In this document: positions 9,014 to 51,571 of the stretch, in pieces
Layout of the letters: each line of letters starts with the position of its first letter
How positions within the stretch are numbered: position 1 is the stretch's first letter
Assembly (NCBI RefSeq): GCF_000025225.2
Contig: NC_013895.2
Coordinates: 1,736,001-1,800,000 of the forward strand
Origin: Mageeibacillus indolicus UPII9-5
Lineage (GTDB): Bacteria; Bacillota; Clostridia; Saccharofermentanales; Fastidiosipilaceae
Reading direction: 5' to 3'
Length of the DNA: 64,000 nt
Notes under the pieces: model-generated
The model's input: the letters and a program-made list of their open reading frames with translations, nothing else
Database searches by the model: none
What the model was told of the DNA's origin: nothing
Made by a program: the position numbers and the translations under genes

Positions 9014-9102
9014 TTAGGTTCTGCTTTTTACAGAAATTATTTCAAATGGCCCTGTTTTCCTTCTTAGCCATTCATGTGTTTCCGCATCTGATTCATCTAA
9101 AA
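9014..9102 (-). pseudogene. Fragment shared with another island remnant
   Basis: The minus strand reads LDESDAETHEWLRRKTG followed by PFEIISVKSRT and a stop. The end (EIISVKSR) recurs at 31103-31135. It is the tail of a gene I cannot name, present twice in the island. Confidence 0.35.
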
Positions 9103-9104
9103 CC

Positions 9105-9404
9105 TTAATGTTTAGAATAATATGAAGTTACAACTGCAACTACAATTACACCTATAATTATGGTTCCTACCACCACAAAAATAGCTTTCTCTGCCATTAT
9201 TATTCCTTTTAATATTAAGAATGATTCTACTAATAGCAAAAGTCCAAGCAGCAATAACAACAGACCGGACATTGTCGCCAATCGAGTTTCATCAACACCT
9301 GATTTCGGAGTATATCCAGCTAAAATTCCTACTAATTTAAATTTCCATATCAATATCCCTACAATTGTCAATGTAATGCCTGCTAATAATGAGACAATAG
9401 TCAT
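9105..9404 (-). CDS. DUF3784-like membrane protein
   Basis: 99 residues with three predicted membrane segments: one at the N-terminus, a Leu-rich GLLLLLLGLLLLVES segment and a C-terminal GTIIIGVIVVAVVTSYY. Layout and length fit the DUF3784 family of small Bacillota membrane proteins of unknown role. GGAGG precedes the ATG at 9404. Monocistronic as far as visible. Confidence 0.55.
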   Translation of the reverse strand: MTIVSLLAGITLTIVGILIWKFKLVGILAGYTPKSGVDETRLATMSGLLLLLLGLLLLVESFLILKGIIMAEKAIFVVVGTIIIGVIVVAVVTSYYSKH

Positions 9405-9481
9405 AAACAAGCCTCCTTATTTTTAGACTAATAAATTCTAGATTTTCTCACCATGATAATTAGCCTAAACCTTATTTTCCC

Positions 9482-9497
9482 ACCTCGCAACCTGGGT
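9482..9497. repeat. Truncated island repeat (GCAACCTGGGTGCAAA)
   Basis: CCTCGCAACCTGGGTGCA matches the left edge of the hairpin repeat at about 34054 but stops before the hairpin. It ends the TipAS coding fragment exactly, so the repeat marks a recombination joint. Confidence 0.55.
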
Positions 9498-9720
9498 GCA
9501 AAATAGAAATTAGCTGTAATAAATTCCTGCAGTTTCTTTACCAAAGCCTGAACTTCAACTGAATCGCTGTGTTGTGATTTTACCTTGCCAAATTCTGCAA
9601 AAATCAGCATGAGTTGTTGATGGAACATTTTTGTTTCCTCGCTGTTTCTCCTTAATTTCTTTGAGCGGAAATTCCAAAGCTTTAAACAGCAAACTGGATT
9701 GCAGTACCTTTAAATTAACC
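9490..9720 (-). pseudogene. MerR/TipAL-type regulator remnant
   Basis: Two pieces of one regulator remain. LLFKALEFPLKEIKE (about 9655-9715) fits the MerR N-terminal region, and LMLIFAEFGKVK..VEVQALVKKLQEFI (about 9500-9620) fits the TipAS drug-recognition domain. The dimerisation helix between them is deleted, and the 3' end is cut by the repeat at 9482. Confidence 0.55.
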
Positions 9721-10010
9721 TTTCTACCACTATTCAAAGAAGATTTATTAGAAACACTTGACTATATAACCAATACACTGCAAAATCCCAAAACTGCTCA
9801 CAGACTTGTTGACGATATAGAATCAGCAATCGATAAACGACTTGAATCGCCCCTCTTATTTGCTCCTTACCAATCATCAACAACCCTAGAACACCCCTAC
9901 TACAGGATTAGCGTACGCAACTTTTCTGTTTTTTTACGTTGTCATCGACGACACTGAGGAAGATATCTTTTCCTACCCTAAAATATCTGCACAAGTTTTA
10001 TAGGTTTTAT
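9700..10010 (+). pseudogene. ParE/RelE-type toxin, frameshifted
   Basis: The frame reads KLTFLPLFKEDLLETLDYI and RLVDDIESAIDKRL as in ParE/RelE toxins. After RNFSVF it shifts at a run of seven T (about 9926) and the family ending (YVVIDDTEEDIFSYPKI) continues in the next frame to about 9997. No start codon in the usual place and no antitoxin beside it. Confidence 0.65.
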
Positions 10011-10134
10011 CTATTAGAAACTTATAGTTTTCTAAGATCGATAAGCTGGGAGTTGTCAGCTAATAAGTTTACTTGCCAACTTGTACACTTGATTTGTTTC
10101 TTTGCTTTCCAACTTCCAGCTATTAAGTTCAACT

Positions 10135-11871
10135 TTAATTTGCGAATCTCCAGCTTTCAGCCTTGCTTCTCGATTCGATAAGAGCTCGATAAAGACCTCC
10201 TTGCAGCATCAATTCATCATGTGTGCCGCACTGCTCAATCCCTGCTTTGTTCAGTACCAAAATCCGGTTTGCATTACGGATCGTCTTCAAGCGGTGCGCG
10301 ATCATGATGACGGTTTTGTTTTGAGTAAGGGCTTCAATGGCTGCTTTCAGCTTGTCTTCGTTTTCCGGATCAACATTTGCAGTAGCTTCATCAAAGATGA
10401 TAATCGGTGCATCTTTCAGCATTGCTCTGGCAATGGAGATGCGCTGTTTTTCACCGCCGGAAAGACTTGTTCCACCTTCTCCGATCATGCTCTGATAGCC
10501 ATCGGGCAAGGCGGAAATAAAGTCATGGCACTGGGCCTTTTTTGCCGCCGCAATCACATCATCGCGGTTGGCATTTGGGCATCCGAATTTAATGTTGTTT
10601 TCAATCGTATCGGCAAAAAGATAGACATCTTGGAAGACCATCGAAATATGCTTCATGAGATTTTCAAGGGAGTAATCTTTTATGTTCTTTCCTCCAAGGC
10701 GAATCTCTCCTGAATTGACATCCCAAAAGCGAGAGATCAAATTGCAAAAAGTTGTTTTCCCTGAACCAGACGGCCCTACGATAGCCGTCATTGATCTTTC
10801 GGGGATATAGCAAGACACATTATTTAAGATTGGCTTTTCGCCATAGGCAAAGGAAACATTTTTAAATTCAATATCGTGTTGCTGAAGTGCATCATTGATA
10901 TGACCTTCCGGCATATCTTGCATTTGATTGACGTAATCATAAGAATCCATCGCGTTGTCAATGGTTCTAAGCATGGCCATAGCACTACCAGAAGCCAATA
11001 AACTGTTAAAAATCACAAAACTGGCAACCAGCGTCATGATGGTATAGTCCAAAGAAAGCTCTCCCGAAAAGTAGCATGAAAGTGCTGTGGCAATCATAAC
11101 CGAAATCGTGATAGCAATGATGATTTTCAGCAGTACCGTGTAAGGCGTAACGGCCCTTTCAAGGCTCAACGTCGATTTTTTTGTTTCTTCAAAACTTTGA
11201 TCCAGCTTGTTGTTATTTTGTCCGCCCAAGTTATAGGACTTGATGATCTGCATACCTTGCAAGGTTGCCAGCACTTCTTTCGTGAGATCGTTTTGTACAA
11301 TAGAAACTCGATCCGAACTCTTTTTAGATCTTTGCTGCATTAAAACGGCCGCCGCCAAGAAAATCAAAGACCCAGCGATAGCAATGAGTGCAATTTTCCA
11401 ATACAGCATAAAAAGGGACAGAATAAATACCACGGTTACAAGAAGACCGCTGAATACCATAATAAAAAGTGTGGGCACCCAAGTTTCGAGACTGTCCAAC
11501 TTTGTCGTCGCAATGGCCGTTAAATTTCCTAAGCTAAAATCATTGAAAAAGCCCATTGGCACTTTTTTGATTTTTTCTCCCATAGCGATACGTTTATTTG
11601 CGGCTGTAAAATAGCCGGCATGCGTTTGCTTAAGCATGGAATTTTTCTTAGAAATAATGATGCCCAGTAAGGAAAGCAATAAGAATGCGCTGCACATACC
11701 AATCGTCTGCCACGTAATTTCCTGCTTTATAATCGCCGCAATGACCAAATAGATGGCCATAAATTGAAAAACGTTAAAAATCGCGCCCAAAAAACTCCAG
11801 ATCACCGAGGAGCGAATCATTCCTTGCTCACGCTCTGCAAATTTCCATAACTTCTTAAATATATTAATCAT
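10135..11871 (-). CDS. Heterodimeric ABC exporter subunit B
   Basis: 578 residues: an N-terminal six-helix exporter membrane domain (about 1-320) and a C-terminal ATPase with GPSGSGKTT, LSGGEKQR, IIIFDEATANVD and the switch His in AHRL. Start at 11871 (MINIFKKLWKF) because AGGTGA sits just before it; the ORF extends eight codons further. It overlaps the partner gene's stop by 8 bases, so the two are translationally coupled. Together they form a TetR-controlled exporter related to multidrug or siderophore-type exporters; substrate unknown. Confidence 0.85.
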   Translation of the reverse strand: MINIFKKLWKFAEREQGMIRSSVIWSFLGAIFNVFQFMAIYLVIAAIIKQEITWQTIGMCSAFLLLSLLGIIISKKNSMLKQTHAGYFTAANKRIAMGEKIKKVPMGFFNDFSLGNLTAIATTKLDSLETWVPTLFIMVFSGLLVTVVFILSLFMLYWKIALIAIAGSLIFLAAAVLMQQRSKKSSDRVSIVQNDLTKEVLATLQGMQIIKSYNLGGQNNNKLDQSFEETKKSTLSLERAVTPYTVLLKIIIAITISVMIATALSCYFSGELSLDYTIMTLVASFVIFNSLLASGSAMAMLRTIDNAMDSYDYVNQMQDMPEGHINDALQQHDIEFKNVSFAYGEKPILNNVSCYIPERSMTAIVGPSGSGKTTFCNLISRFWDVNSGEIRLGGKNIKDYSLENLMKHISMVFQDVYLFADTIENNIKFGCPNANRDDVIAAAKKAQCHDFISALPDGYQSMIGEGGTSLSGGEKQRISIARAMLKDAPIIIFDEATANVDPENEDKLKAAIEALTQNKTVIMIAHRLKTIRNANRILVLNKAGIEQCGTHDELMLQGGLYRALIESRSKAESWRFAN

Positions 11872-29275: not shown

Positions 29276-29344
29276 TGCTTAATAGCTTGATTATTGAGTA
29301 TTGAGATGGACCCAGAATTTCGGACACACTAGGCGACAAGCTGG

Positions 29345-29410
29345 ATTAAGTGGTCAGTATGGATAAGATGAAATGTTTTTCAAAGCTTCGTATGTGGGAA
29401 TATATCCATA
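29345..29410 (-). repeat. rlmD-like scar (D-I-F-P-H-T)
   Basis: Minus-strand 29406-29389 reads GATATATTCCCACATACG, D-I-F-P-H-T, resembling the rlmD codons D-M-F-P-Q-T at 50237-50254. The surrounding 60 bp closely resemble 2821-2880. Confidence 0.55.
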
Positions 29411-36835: not shown

Positions 36836-37024
36836 TGCATAAAAATGCTTACCAAACGAGACCCTATCTCCGTGATCGAAATAAACGGGAGGTGTTAAAA
36901 CCATATTCAGTTTTATTGACCATACGAATTCCTCATTTCAATTCATCAACTTGTAATAAAATATCATTCTGCGTAGATTATGAAGAGACACGCAGTTTAG
37001 ATATGAAAAGGAAAATGCACCCAG

Positions 37025-37063
37025 CTAATCAGCCCTTGACATCAATACAACGCTCTCGACGGG
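37025..37063 (-). repeat. rlmD 3'-end copy (PVESVVLMSRAD-stop)
   Basis: Thirteen codons including TAG read P-V-E-S-V-V-L-M-S-R-A-D-stop, against H-V-E-S-V-V-L-M-S-R-V-D-stop at the native rlmD end. GCTGGGTGCATTTT follows, as after other copies. Confidence 0.85.
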
Positions 37064-38363: not shown

Positions 38364-38405
38364 TTAGTCATTCACCCTTGACATCAATACAACACTCTCG
38401 ACGTG
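38364..38405 (-). repeat. rlmD 3'-end copy (HVESVVLMSRVND-stop)
   Basis: Reads H-V-E-S-V-V-L-M-S-R-V-N-D-stop. Going upstream, the same frame stays open as H-P-V-S-I-V-C-T-Q-K-S-V-A-I-L-G-V-L-S-I to a TAA inside the hairpin repeat at 38470-38500. Confidence 0.85.
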
Positions 38406-38528: not shown

Positions 38529-39152
38529 TTACTTACAGTATTCCTCTACTTTATATTCATACTTTTTTAAAAGTTCTCGTGAGTAAACTTTTTCACTCTT
38601 TGATTCTCTAACTTCTTTCCAGAGAATAGCTGCAACTTTTAACTTATTAGAATAACAATCGCTAAATTCATCTAAACAAAAGTCTTTTAGAAACTTATTC
38701 CATTGACAAGCCGAACTATCATACTTAGCATAATCCGACTCACCATAATATATTTTAATCATATCTTGAATAGTGAATTTTATATCTTTATCCCTTTTTA
38801 CTTTTCGCCAAGCCGTTGCCATATCAGCACTAAATTTAAACGGACTAATACCTGTTACAGCTGAAAAATAATCTCGAAATTTTTGGTTAAATGAAAAACC
38901 GCATTTAAGTAATGGTGTCTCCAAGGTTATAACTTCGGACTGATTTTTATTTCCTCTACTCATACTCAAAAATTTTTCTACTCTATTTCCCCTAAAATAT
39001 TGTTCGATAATATAGTTCAATTCTTGCTTCGTACATCTATACTCTAATCCAAGAGACTTACAAATTTGTGAAAGTTCTTCTCGATACCAATAGTATTTGT
39101 TAAATTCTTCAAATGATTTTATATCTCTAAAATCAGGTCTTTTTTCTTTCAT
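38529..39152 (-). CDS. SAP-like domain protein
   Basis: 207 residues. The N-terminal FEEFNKYYWYREELSQICKSLGLEYRCTKQELNYIIEQYF resembles a SAP-type helical DNA-binding motif. The middle part, PLLKCGFSFNQKFRDYFS...F.ADMATAWRKVKR, is shared with the paralogue at 40956-41574. AAGG precedes ATG. Downstream of Fic on the same strand; a toxin-antitoxin-like link to Fic is possible but unproved. Reminiscent of DUF6434/SAP-type proteins found singly in Bacillota. Confidence 0.65.
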   Translation of the reverse strand: MKEKRPDFRDIKSFEEFNKYYWYREELSQICKSLGLEYRCTKQELNYIIEQYFRGNRVEKFLSMSRGNKNQSEVITLETPLLKCGFSFNQKFRDYFSAVTGISPFKFSADMATAWRKVKRDKDIKFTIQDMIKIYYGESDYAKYDSSACQWNKFLKDFCLDEFSDCYSNKLKVAAILWKEVRESKSEKVYSRELLKKYEYKVEEYCK

Positions 39153-40728: not shown

Positions 40729-40770
40729 TTAGTCCTTTACCCTAGACATCAAAACAACACTCTCAACGTG
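40729..40770 (-). repeat. rlmD 3'-end copy (HVESVVLMSRVKD-stop)
   Basis: Reads H-V-E-S-V-V-L-M-S-R-V-K-D-stop. Upstream in the same frame is F-I-H-S-V-D-S-R, partly matching the ATCCATAGTGT flank of the copy at 38364. Confidence 0.9.
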
Positions 40771-40807
40771 CCTGGAGTCAACACTATGGATAAAAAGTTC
40801 ATTTTTT

Positions 40808-40905
40808 CGTTTTCGCGAACATATCATTGACTTTTTTAATGTTTTCCTCGTATTGGTAAACATATCATAGGTTTTTTTATACTAGTACGTATTTGGAAAC
40901 ATATC
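40808..40905 (-). repeat. Three tandem D-M-F-x-x-T scars
   Basis: GATATGTT boxes at 40888-40905, 40849-40866 and 40808-40825 read D-M-F-P-N-T, D-M-F-T-N-T and D-M-F-A-K-T on the minus strand, at 39- and 41-bp intervals. The native rlmD codons at 50237-50254 read D-M-F-P-Q-T. The 20-odd bases after each box differ. Confidence 0.75.
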
Positions 40906-40955
40906 GAGTTTTATGTTTTTGATATATAATACACATTATATAATGTAGAATTTAC

Positions 40956-41574
40956 TCATTTACAATATCCTTTTATTTTATCTGCATATTTGCTTAAAAG
41001 CTCTTTTGAATATACTTTACTTTGGTTAGATTCTCTCACTTCGTTCCAAAGAATTGCAGCAACTTTCATCTTATTAGAAAATTTATCACTACGTTCATCT
41101 AAGTTAAAATCTTTTACAAACTGGTTCCATTGGTTAGTAGTATTATCATATTTTGCGTAATCAGAGTCTCCATTATATGCATCAAGCATATTTTTAATTG
41201 TAAAATTTTTGTCGTTCTTTCTTTTTACTTTTCGCCAAGCTTCTGCCATATTCGCATTAAATTTAAATGGCTTAATTCCAGTTTGCTCTGAAAAATAGTC
41301 TCTAAATTTTTGATTGAATGAAAATCCACATTCTAGTAATGGAGTATTTAATGTTATATTATCAGTTATCTTTTTATTTTTATTCCTTGAAGATTTTTTT
41401 TATTTTATTTCCCTTAAAATATTCTTCTATAATATAATTCAGTTCCTTTTTTGTTCCTCTATATTCTAATCCAAGAGACTTACAAACTTTTGATAACTCC
41501 TCTCGATACCAATAATATTTGTTGAATTCTTCAAATGATTTTATATCTTTAAATTCAGGTCTACTTTCTAACAT
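40956..41574 (-). pseudogene. SAP-like protein paralogue with frameshift at A8
   Basis: The 5' half (MLESRPEFKDIKSFEEFNKY, 41574-41380) and 3' half (to 40956) match the protein at 38529-39152 from end to end. The frame is lost in a run of eight A (minus strand, about 41395-41402), after GNKIKK, and resumes as SRNKNKKITDNITLN...ECGFSFNQKFRDYFSEQTG. Apart from this one-base shift the gene looks whole, so slippage could restore it. Confidence 0.75.
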
Positions 41575-41608
41575 ACACTTTCCCTCAATTATCTTTTTTT
41601 CTATTCGT

Positions 41609-41635
41609 TTGTCATCAATACCAGAGCCTCCGCCG
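41609..41635 (-). repeat. Direct repeat flanking a GNAT gene, left
   Basis: TTGTCATCAATAC...CCTCCGCCG matches 42269-42295 at 24 of 27 positions. On the minus strand it reads A-E-A-L-V-L-M-T-N-E-stop, comparable with V-E-S-V-V-L-M-S-R at the rlmD ends. Confidence 0.7.
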
Positions 41636-41684
41636 CAGCTTTCACATTAAACGAGTAAACACTAGGTATGTCTTATGACATGTT

Positions 41685-41741
41685 CGTATGCAGAAACATA
41701 TCCATGAACCTTTTAACAATTATCTCTGCCTATCGTTAAAA
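41685..41741. repeat. D-M-F-x-x-T scar with degraded hairpin R, copy 6
   Basis: Minus-strand 41702-41685 reads GATATGTTTCTGCATACG (D-M-F-L-H-T). Directly beside it, 41711-41741 holds TTTTAACAATTA...CTATCGTTAAAA, a worn copy of the hairpin repeat. Confidence 0.65.
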
Positions 41742-41768
41742 GGTTTCAAGCAAATAAACTTAGAGTTC

Positions 41769-42239
41769 TCACACTCCTAGATATTTAATATATATTTGAC
41801 ACGGATTCCACTCATCCCATAAAGTTGGAAAACATTCCAATTCTTTATATCCCATCGCGATATAAAAATGATTTGTAATATCATATTCTTTGTAGTGTCC
41901 CATCTGAACAGTTTTTACCTGTGAGTATGTGTAACCCATCTTCCTTGCCATAGCTTCGTATGCTTTGTTAAGTACCGAGCCAACTCCCATTCTATGGAAT
42001 TTCTTTTTTATACCCATCACAAAAATCTCTGCACAATCCTTGCTTGTTGCGTTTAACACAATAAACCCAACAAGTTTATCATTAATATAACAAGCAAGAA
42101 AAGGCTTTTCCTGTGAATCTTGAATATATTCTTCTGTACTTTCTGGCATTCCAAACCATTCTTGAAGATCATACAATACTTCTCTCGATACAGATTCCTT
42201 TTCTAGTTTATTCTCAATTTCTTTTACTTTTATATTCAA
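41769..42239 (-). CDS. GNAT acetyltransferase
   Basis: 156 residues from a TTG at 42239 (read MNIKVKEIENKLEKESV), 6 bases after GGAGG. An ATG further upstream (42278) lies inside the flanking direct repeat and gives a non-family N-terminus. Acetyl-CoA motif KKFHRMGVGSVLNKAYE; conserved EWFGMPESTEEYI and WDEWNPCQIYIKYLG ends. A single gene exactly bracketed by a 27-bp direct repeat and a hairpin copy. Substrate unknown. Confidence 0.8.
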   Translation of the reverse strand: MNIKVKEIENKLEKESVSREVLYDLQEWFGMPESTEEYIQDSQEKPFLACYINDKLVGFIVLNATSKDCAEIFVMGIKKKFHRMGVGSVLNKAYEAMARKMGYTYSQVKTVQMGHYKEYDITNHFYIAMGYKELECFPTLWDEWNPCQIYIKYLGV

Positions 42240-42268
42240 TCCAGTCCTCCACAAACTATATTTTATTC

Positions 42269-42295
42269 TTGTCATCAATACTATAACCTCCGCCG
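42269..42295 (-). repeat. Direct repeat flanking a GNAT gene, right
   Basis: Partner of 41609-41635. The minus strand reads A-E-V-I-V-L-M-T-R. It lies 30 bp upstream of the GNAT start. Confidence 0.7.
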
Positions 42296-42387
42296 TCGAA
42301 TCTTTTCAATCGAAGCTTCCTATTCGGTCGCTTCTCTTGGAGATTCTTGACATGAGACCTACCTCTGCTTCGCATCGATTAGCTTTG

Positions 42388-42530
42388 CTAATCGCGCGAT
42401 AGCAGGGTTAGAGCTTCAACGTTGATTGAGAGAACTCCGAGTATTTCTACACTTTTTTGAGTGCACACTATGGGTATTGGGTGCACTTTTTAACGATAGG
42501 AAAAGCTATCGTTAAAAGGTTTAAGACTCG
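42388..42530 (-). repeat. Hairpin repeat R copy 7 joined to a divergent rlmD-like end
   Basis: A perfect hairpin at 42488-42517 (same 12-bp arms as copy 1) is followed on the minus strand by an open frame K-V-H-P-I-P-I-V-C-T-Q-K-S-V-E-I-L-G-V, then L-S-I-N-V-E-A-L-T-L-L-S-R-D-stop. It parallels the composite at 38364-38500 residue by residue, with V-E-A-L-T-L-L-S-R-D in place of V-E-S-V-V-L-M-S-R. Confidence 0.75.
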
Positions 42531-46010: not shown

Positions 46011-46210
46011 TAACATCCTGTGCACTCGACCCTAAAGCGTAGACATGTTCCCTCATACAGCAAAATCGCACTCAAAAACCTCGAGAACCCGGCCTAAAGC
46101 CGCCACTCATTAAACCTTTTAACGATAGACTTCACTAAACCCTGCTACACAAGGGCAAAAATGCACCCACCTATTAAGCCCTTGACATCAATACGACAGT
46201 CTCGACGTGG
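46009..46210. repeat. 202-bp direct repeat, left copy
   Basis: Matches 50033-50233 along its length, with about 90 percent identity by eye. It starts GTTAACATCCTGTGCACTCGACC and ends with an rlmD 3'-end copy (46174-46209, HVETVVLMSRA-stop on the minus strand). It contains a half hairpin (TTTTAACGATAG, 46117-46128). On the plus strand it reads V-D-M-F-P-H-T-A-K (46039-46065). Confidence 0.9.
46174..46209 (-). repeat. rlmD 3'-end copy (HVETVVLMSRA-stop)
   Basis: Twelve codons including TAA. Upstream on the minus strand, within 130 bp, are two more scars: D-Q-F-P-R-T at 46257-46274 and D-L-F-P-R-T at 46318-46335. Confidence 0.9.
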
Positions 46211-49822: not shown

Positions 49823-50080
49823 TCACTTATCAATTCCATTAGGCAAAATGGAATCAACCTCGTTCTCCTTAAAAGTCTGTTCTTCTTCCTTTTGCAAAGC
49901 CTTCTGCGCAGCCCTGTAGCTTCTCTCATCAGTTGCAGGATAATTATTATTGACTTCTGAAACTTTATTACAAAGAACATCTCTCTTTTTTTGTATCTCA
50001 CTATCGTCAAGCACTTCAAAATCAACTAATTCGTTAACATCCTGTGCACTCGACCCCAGAGCGTTGATATCTTCCCTCAT
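49823..50080 (-). pseudogene. 3' remnant of an unrecognised gene
   Basis: 85 codons; the first 20 (REDINALGSSAQDVNELV) lie in the 202-bp repeat. The rest (DDSEIQKKRDVLCNKVSEV...DERSYRAAQKALQKEEEQTF) looks like the charged, helical tail of a larger protein, ending VDSILPNGIDK. No ribosome site at the first ATG. Compare the similar start at 14722. Confidence 0.4.
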
Positions 50081-50233
50081 ACAGCAAAATCACTCTCCAA
50101 GACCGCGAGAACCCGGCCTAAAGCCGCCACTCATTAAACCTTTTAACGATAGACTTCGCTAAACCCTGCTACACAAGGGCAAAAATGCACCCACCTAATC
50201 AACCCTAGACATCAATACGACACTCTCCACATG
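50033..50233. repeat. 202-bp direct repeat, right copy, joined to rlmD
   Basis: Partner of 46009-46210. Its right end is the true rlmD 3' end. The two copies bracket a 3.8-kb module with the zinc-ribbon pair and the AlbA gene. The plus strand reads V-D-I-F-P-H-T-A-K at 50063-50089. Confidence 0.9.
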
Positions 50234-51571
50234 TGGTGTTTGCGGGAACATATCAACCGGCTGTACATCGCCTGCATGATAGCCAGCCTTCAGCAACAGA
50301 GCCATATCCCTAGCCAAGGTCGCCGGATTACATGAAACATATACAATTTTTGCCGGCCGAACCGTCGACAAAGCCTCGATAACCTCAGTAGCCAAACCCT
50401 TACGTGGCGGGTCTACCACCACTACATCCGGAGCCAGCCCTTCAGCCACCCATTGCGGTATTACGGTTTCCGCTTTACCGCAGACAAATGAAGCATTATG
50501 TATACCATTAACCTCGGCATTACGCTCAGCCATTTCAATCGCCGCCGGCACAATCTCCACTCCATAAACAAATTTTGCCCGCCGCGCCAAATACAGCGAG
50601 ATCGTCCCTATACCACAATAAGCATCGATAACCGTTTCATTACCCGACAAACCGGCCACCTCAAGCACAGTCTGATAGAGCTTTTCTGCCTGTAAAGTAT
50701 TTACTTGTAAAAAGCTTTGCCAAGAAACCATGAAAGTCAGACCTCCGATTGTTTCCCGATAACAGTCACAACCATAAAGCACCCTACTTTCATGCCCCAA
50801 AATAACGTTAGTTGCCTGACAGTTTTTGTTCATTATCAGCCCAGTCAAATTGGGAATAGCCGAAACTATTTCCTGTGTAACATCTATTTCTTCCGGTAAA
50901 ATCGCTCCATTAACGACAAAAATCACCATTATTTCACCGGTATGGAATCCGACTCTTACCCCAATATGGCGAAGCAAACCCCTACCGGTTTTTTCATCAT
51001 AAGCCGTCCAGCCGTGACGATTAATCACTTGAAGTACGGTTTGAATTGTCCGATCAATAATAGGCAGTTGAATTTTGTAATCAGCTACAGGGATAAACTT
51101 ATGCGAGTTTTGGCGATAAAAACCGCTGCAAAGATGACCAATTTTCCCAGCAATCGGGACTAAAGCTTTGTTGCGATAATGCCATGGCTCTTCCATACCT
51201 AAAGTATCTCTTACCGATATATCTCTAAGCTCCGGGAATTTCCCCAAGGTCCTCCGCACTTGGTCCTGCTTAAAAGTAAGTTGATACTGATAATTCAGAT
51301 GGGCCAAAGCTAAAGTTCCATCTCTCAGTTCGGAACTAACCTGAGCGCGACGGTCGGAGGTTGTATAGCGTTCAACCACTTTGGCGAAAGCATAGTTTTT
51401 TAAAGGACGCACTATCCGGGCCCGTACTCTTTCGGGGGGTAAGGCATCAGGCAAAAATAGTGGATAGCCATTGACCTTGGCCACTCCCAGCCCTTCGTGT
51501 GTCAAATCCTCTATTATAACGTCCATTTCTTGATTTTTAACCGGAGAATACAGGGAATTTTTGTTCGCCAT
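50195..51571 (-). CDS. rlmD: 23S rRNA (uracil-C5)-methyltransferase, RlmD/RlmCD type
   Basis: 458 residues. TRAM RNA-binding domain about residues 12-70; SAM site VIDAYCGIGTISLYLARRA; DPPRKGL; catalytic Cys in YVSCNPATLARD; closing MFPQTPHVESVVLMSRVD. It methylates a uracil of 23S rRNA (m5U1939, possibly also m5U747). The Fe-S cysteines usually found before the catalytic domain (CxxxxxCGGC) are absent here: that region reads LRDGTLALAHLNYQYQL. The last codons are copied downstream at least four times. Conserved chromosomal gene, the right boundary of the island. Confidence 0.9.
   Translation of the reverse strand: MANKNSLYSPVKNQEMDVIIEDLTHEGLGVAKVNGYPLFLPDALPPERVRARIVRPLKNYAFAKVVERYTTSDRRAQVSSELRDGTLALAHLNYQYQLTFKQDQVRRTLGKFPELRDISVRDTLGMEEPWHYRNKALVPIAGKIGHLCSGFYRQNSHKFIPVADYKIQLPIIDRTIQTVLQVINRHGWTAYDEKTGRGLLRHIGVRVGFHTGEIMVIFVVNGAILPEEIDVTQEIVSAIPNLTGLIMNKNCQATNVILGHESRVLYGCDCYRETIGGLTFMVSWQSFLQVNTLQAEKLYQTVLEVAGLSGNETVIDAYCGIGTISLYLARRAKFVYGVEIVPAAIEMAERNAEVNGIHNASFVCGKAETVIPQWVAEGLAPDVVVVDPPRKGLATEVIEALSTVRPAKIVYVSCNPATLARDMALLLKAGYHAGDVQPVDMFPQTPHVESVVLMSRVD

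Follow-up and report, generated by a model that had tools for sequence, protein, structure and literature searches.

Three rlmD-like boxes in the putative left attachment arm of a small recombinase-less cassette behind rlmD of Mageeibacillus indolicus

Three boxes encoding DMFPNT, DMFTNT and DMFAKT lie behind the rlmD gene of Mageeibacillus indolicus UPII9-5, and we consider it probable (about 0.7), from comparison of sequences, that they are conserved, built-in repeats of the left attachment arm of a small rlmD cassette lacking a recombinase, where they would act as putative attB-like arm sites for mobility in trans. The DNA analysed as a whole (the window) comprises 64,000 nucleotides of contig NC_013895.2, and its features are listed in Table 1.

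The boxes and the cassette that carries them

A preliminary description had reported three minus-strand DMFxxT boxes at a spacing of about 40 bp near a copy of the rlmD tail, with different DNA between them, and this was confirmed. The start-to-start distances are 39 and 41 bp, the spacers of 21 and 23 bp differ in sequence, and 37 bp separate box 3 from the rlmD-tail copy CACGTTGAGAGTGTTGTTTTGATGTCTAGGGTAAAGGACTAA (HVESVVLMSRVKD*), whose start is at 40770. A degenerate box pattern allowing up to two mismatches matched 11 times in the window, compared to 0.75 expected matches and a maximum of 4 in 100 shuffles, an enrichment that by itself counts for little since the pattern was derived from the boxes themselves. 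Independent evidence against chance is that the same array turns up in other genomes. Dyad symmetry within the box was looked for by eye and no convincing palindrome was seen. Spacings of 39 and 41 bp correspond to non-integral helical turns, and cooperative binding on one face of the DNA was not evident. Boxes in the inverted orientation occur in two right arms of the window (Table 1), and the right arms of several phage-type elements also carry an inverted box, ~150 bp beyond the tail start.

Table 1. Features of the window, in order of decreasing distance from its first nucleotide
Feature	Position	Strand	Remarks
rlmD (rumA), target gene	50195..51571	-	PF05958 and TRAM domains
Original rlmD codons GATATGTTCCCGCAAACA (DMFPQT)	50237..50254	-	5' end at -21 from the CA of the HVE codons
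Inverted box GATATCTTCCCTCATACA	50066..50083	+	In element right arm adjoining rlmD
rlmD tail and right arm	46078..46209	-	93% identical to rlmD 3' end over 132 bp
Inverted box GACATGTTCCCTCATACA	46042..46059	+	Equivalent position in next right arm
Recombinase-less, putatively mobile cassette	~40771..42424	-	1,654 bp; order: rlmD tail, GNAT gene, degenerate junction, SAP-domain gene, three boxes, core
Cassette's own rlmD tail NVEALTLLSRD*	42388..42424	-	HVEALTMLSRD* in G428; read directly from sequence
GNAT acetyltransferase gene	41769..42278	-	
Inverted repeat ACCTTTTAACGATAGGCAGAGATAATTGTTAAAAGGT	41708..41744	-	Upstream of fourth box
Fourth box GATATGTTTCTGCATACG	41685..41702	-	~65 bp before degenerate rlmD tail; read as older fused single-box end
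Degenerate rlmD tail VAEALVLMTNE*	41607..41636	-	Inside cassette
SAP_new25-domain gene	40956..41575	-	Frameshifted; Pfam PF18953 on intact copy
Box 1 GATATGTTTCCAAATACG (DMFPNT)	40888..40905	-	5' end at -135 from CA
Box 2 GATATGTTTACCAATACG (DMFTNT)	40849..40866	-	5' end at -96 from CA; most conserved box
Box 3 GATATGTTCGCGAAAACG (DMFAKT)	40808..40825	-	5' end at -55 from CA
Core of element's left end CTTTTTATCCATAGTGTTGACTCCAGG	40771..40797	-	Immediately before CA
CA dinucleotide	40769..40770	-	Putative crossover and outer boundary of cassette; four cassette copies stop being similar here
rlmD-tail copy HVESVVLMSRVKD*	40729..40770	-	Outside cassette; older rlmD 3' end
rlmD-tail copy	38374..38405	-	Behind box-less (type H) end
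rlmD-tail copy	37012..37060	-	
Single-box (type S) end GATATATTCCCACATACG, core CATACTGACCACTTAATCCA	29342..29406	-	

The GNAT and SAP genes are the only genes of the cassette, and genes for recombination or transfer are absent from it. Copies of the cassette were found in a viral contig (L138) and in two genomes (G504 and G428), with 96-99% identity across 1.66 kb and different flanks in each case. The SAP-domain gene is frameshifted in the window by an extra A in a run of A residues, and is intact, with 205 aa, in L138, G116, G428 and G504. Attachment-site sequences bound the cassette on both sides, as an rlmD-tail end and a box/core end, each of which meets the flank at a CA. At the box end, similarity among the copies stops after ...GACTCCAGG and the common CA; beyond this point the window has an rlmD-type tail, L138 has Tn916 orf13-like DNA, and G428 and G504 have different tails. 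The opposite end begins with the cassette's own rlmD tail, upstream of which the DNA again varies among copies. Since the boundary of similarity lies at the CA, the boxes belong to the interior of the element, at distances of 55, 96 and 135 bp from that dinucleotide.

Copies of the rlmD tail start at 46209, 40770, 38405 and 37063 behind rlmD, and the single-box end lies further out, at ~29.4 kb. In common with rumA-type elements, the cassette has a position at the 3' end of rlmD and swaps the tail of the gene. We looked for a recombinase with a serine resolvase domain in the cassette and in the 1,809,746-bp genome and found none; the three tyrosine recombinases of the genome all lie away from the array.

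Two observations concern junctions and ends of this kind. At position 2979 of L138, a Gardnerella-type viral contig, the left end of the cassette meets the 3' half of a Tn916 orf13-like gene at the CA; as only this half is joined to the cassette, we claim a junction and not a clean insertion. An inverted repeat, AACGATAG...CTATCGTT followed by AAAAGGT, is repeated near element ends both in this genome (including 41708-41744) and in phages, and could serve as a terminator or as a further site for a recombinase.

Element ends in other genomes

Viral contigs were scanned exactly for two spaced boxes, which gave a single contig, L138, that also carries an rlmD tail. Among 391 class-mate genomes scanned, G116, G285 and G001 proved to have the same end, and further ends of the kind came from 130 genomes of the family of G116. 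Three boxes are present at nine distinct loci (the window, L138, G116, G428, G504, G487, G285, G442 and G459), two boxes at four (G001, G513, G460 and a second copy in G459) and one box at two (G412 and a third copy in G459). The preliminary description had expected likeness of its units to element ends, and the same three-box array does end elements at the eight loci outside the window, which belong to seven class-mate genomes and L138 and in which the spacing is nearly unchanged. Boxes 1, 2 and 3 correspond position by position between loci, indicating that the array predates its spread. The two-box end of G001 fits a deletion between boxes 2 and 3. In G487 the interval from rlmD to the triple-box end holds serine recombinase genes and no further recognised end, and in G285 a truncated serine recombinase gene is found upstream of the triple-box end. 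Searches of plasmids yielded nothing useful, nor did a search of viral contigs with an alternative core pattern, which gave one chance match (L150).

The ends fall into three types, of which T and S were separated by reading the core in each row, as the T pattern also caught S ends. Type T ends (core ...ATAGTGTCGACTCGAGG) have boxes at -54/-55, -93 to -97 and -134 to -136, type S ends (core ...ATACTGACCACTCAAGC) have one box at -64 (-63 in one case) in 29 of 32 loci, and type H ends have boxes in 0 of 14, with a background rate of 0.05 boxes per 200 bp. Among eight independent type T ends, pairwise identity was 0.68, 0.92 and 0.85 for boxes 1, 2 and 3, 0.59 and 0.77 for the spacers, 0.90 for the core and 0.38 for the upstream flank. 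The higher conservation of the boxes than of the spacers, together with their fixed distances from the CA, suggests selection. Not every member of the family needs the boxes, as type H ends, judged by their spread, work without left boxes. A further end in G504 (L205, 3900-4420, minus strand) has four DMFPxT-like boxes at ~-65, -89, -120 and -150, counted by hand, with a spacing of 24-31 bp.

The resemblance of the boxes to the DMFPxT codons of rlmD, noted in the preliminary description, was borne out by a matrix made from element boxes only. In the 36 of 80 rlmD loci that were scored (the other 44 did not fit the motif definition and were excluded), these codons ranked first of ~1,370 positions in 35-36 genes and at or near the top in every scored gene. 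This ranking makes the comparison of the boxes with rlmD a sound one; it does not make the boxes scars. The empty Tn916 orf13 (tcpC) sequence that matches the L138 junction scored poorly with the matrix. The idea that a box is needed in every target was dropped, and this site, which has GATATG 17 bp from the CA but a poor score, was not used as support.

Origin and possible role of the boxes

We propose that the cassette would insert at the 3' end of rlmD. The sequences show that one end of the cassette lies at the CA and that the opposite end supplies a substitute rlmD tail, and the boxes within it, at -55, -96 and -135 from the CA, mimic the DMFPxT codons located at -21 in rlmD. The CA would be the crossover dinucleotide of a large serine recombinase from the family that accompanies related phages and islands, and this recombinase, or a partner of it, would bind the boxes as attB-like arm sites, whose number and distance would be characteristic of the type of end. 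Movement would occur when the recombinase is supplied in trans, a supply that we infer because this genome is without a serine recombinase. Each insertion would swap the tail of rlmD and push older elements outward together with their tails, giving rise to the tandem array of the window.

The preliminary description had taken the boxes for half-sites that became stacked as elements integrated and excised repeatedly at the same base pairs; in such a model each box would go back to one of these cycles in this chromosome. Repeated integration at rlmD is real, given the several tail copies at the locus, and this part of the earlier reading stands; the boxes do look like the rlmD half-site, and their number varies from one to three among related ends. 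As leftovers of events in this chromosome they are nevertheless very unlikely, since the array is part of a 1,654-bp cassette that travels as one unit and is nearly identical in L138, G504 and G428, and the ordered array, with boxes 1, 2 and 3 matching individually, recurs in at least eight other loci, including other families. Moreover, no box is followed by the right half of an attB, and the deletion in G001 accounts for the two-box end there. Conservative recombination would not duplicate the half-site proximal to rlmD: it leaves the DMFPxT half in rlmD and passes on only tails, so boxes would not become stacked at the far end. A related possibility, which we regard as unlikely, is that half-sites from the rlmD 3' end were captured by an ancestral element on one or a few occasions and that the array is now a passenger with no function. 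The real rlmD codons are the best matches to the boxes, and the four-box end of G504 is independent and differently spaced, as such capture would have it, but a functionless array is at odds with the selection suggested by the better conservation of the boxes than of the spacers and by their fixed distances from the CA.

SAP-type domains can bind DNA, and the boxes could in principle be operators bound by a regulator, for instance by the adjacent SAP-domain protein, whose gene precedes them in the window, L138, G116, G428 and G504. This is highly improbable, as the boxes stand at equal distances from the CA after unrelated genes in G285 (an ABC transporter), G442, G459 and G001, and the second SAP-gene element of the window (38529-39152) has a box-less end; the occurrence of box ends with unrelated cargo assigns the boxes to the element end and not to the SAP gene. 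That the boxes are coding, as the end of a conserved frame running into the rlmD tail, was an alternative named in the preliminary description and is scarcely credible. The window, G116, G285 and G487 have box 2 and the tail in one frame (DMFTNTRKTLKKSMICSRKRKNELFIHSVDSRHVESVVLMSRVKD* in the window), yet in five of the nine loci (L138, G504, G428, G442 and G459) this frame is interrupted by stops or by indels of a single base, and a stop follows box 1 in the window copy.

Relation to known rlmD elements

The rumA gene (rlmD) is a known target of serine integrases (PMC4701971, PMC12785378). The Streptococcus ICEs and IMEs that use rumA (PMC4701971, PMC5704250) resemble the cassette in the target gene, the exchange of its 3' end, the short direct repeats and the serine type of the integrase implicated; unlike them, however, the 1.65-kb cassette carries three boxes in its arm and no recombinase, and so has no serine integrase of its own with att in the 3' end of the gene, the arrangement by which rumA-type ICEs and IMEs are recognised. 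The rlmD prophages vB_Gva_AB1, phi-SsuSSJ28_rum and phiEr670 (PMC12785378) are whole phages, unlike the cassette. The Gardnerella phage vB_Gva_AB1 (MW387018) has an rlmD tail and right arm ~90% identical to that of the window beside three large serine recombinases, an arrangement also seen in other viral contigs; no boxes were found in the region upstream of its rlmD tail. A relative of the SAP gene lies near the end of the Streptococcus phage phi-SsuSSJ28_rum (MN270276).

CIMEs and accretion arrays (PMC5704250) are likewise tandem, att-ended elements without an integrase stacked at one site, but the cassette is much smaller than CIMEs and recurs at 96-99% identity in other families. Similarly, the ssrA genomic islands of Dehalococcoides (PMC3146451) and SCC elements are serine-recombinase islands that stand in tandem behind their target, each with a copy of the target 3' end and many without an integration module; their target is ssrA or rlmH, and a single 15-bp motif lies beside the repeat where the cassette has a repeated mimic of the half-site. 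Both rumA/rlmD as a target and tandem integrase-less islands (CIMEs, ssrA islands) are already known. A limited literature search gave no account of a recombinase-less cassette of 1.65 kb, shared between families, with a multi-box arm that mimics the half-site of its target.

According to the usual description, large serine integrases require no more than a compact att site of ~50 bp. Boxes resembling attB at fixed distances, in elements of several families, suggest an accessory layer in the attachment sites. A comparison with lambda-like arm sites finds direct repeats at the cassette end, and the recombinases found with such ends are of the serine type. Tentatively, and with considerable doubt, one may picture arrays of attB-mimicking arm sites, comparable to the arms of lambda-type tyrosine integrases, with which a serine-recombinase system would move cassettes of one or two genes in and out of rlmD in trans, in which case rlmD would be an integron-like assembly point across phyla with cargo including defence genes (AbiD, Fic). 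A 1.65-kb cassette with no recombinase of its own is present almost unchanged in distant human-associated anaerobes, and rlmD is a good place to study the spread of small gene cassettes, some of them with defence genes.

Some minor observations bear on rlmD as a site. In genomes of family f34, type S ends lie hundreds of kb apart within one genome, often beside an rlmD-like tail, indicating that rlmD is not the sole site used. In the present genome, an AbiD (Abi_2) gene is found between two rlmD-tail copies near pyrB, far from rlmD (L130, ~9060-10780; genome 1,421,061-1,422,780), and this element at ~1.42 Mb is a cassette of the type described here that occupies a secondary site. The RlmD protein of this genome shows 55% identity to Aerococcus RlmD and at most 43% to that of genomes of the same family; in view of this closer relationship, the target gene rlmD may itself have been acquired from elsewhere.
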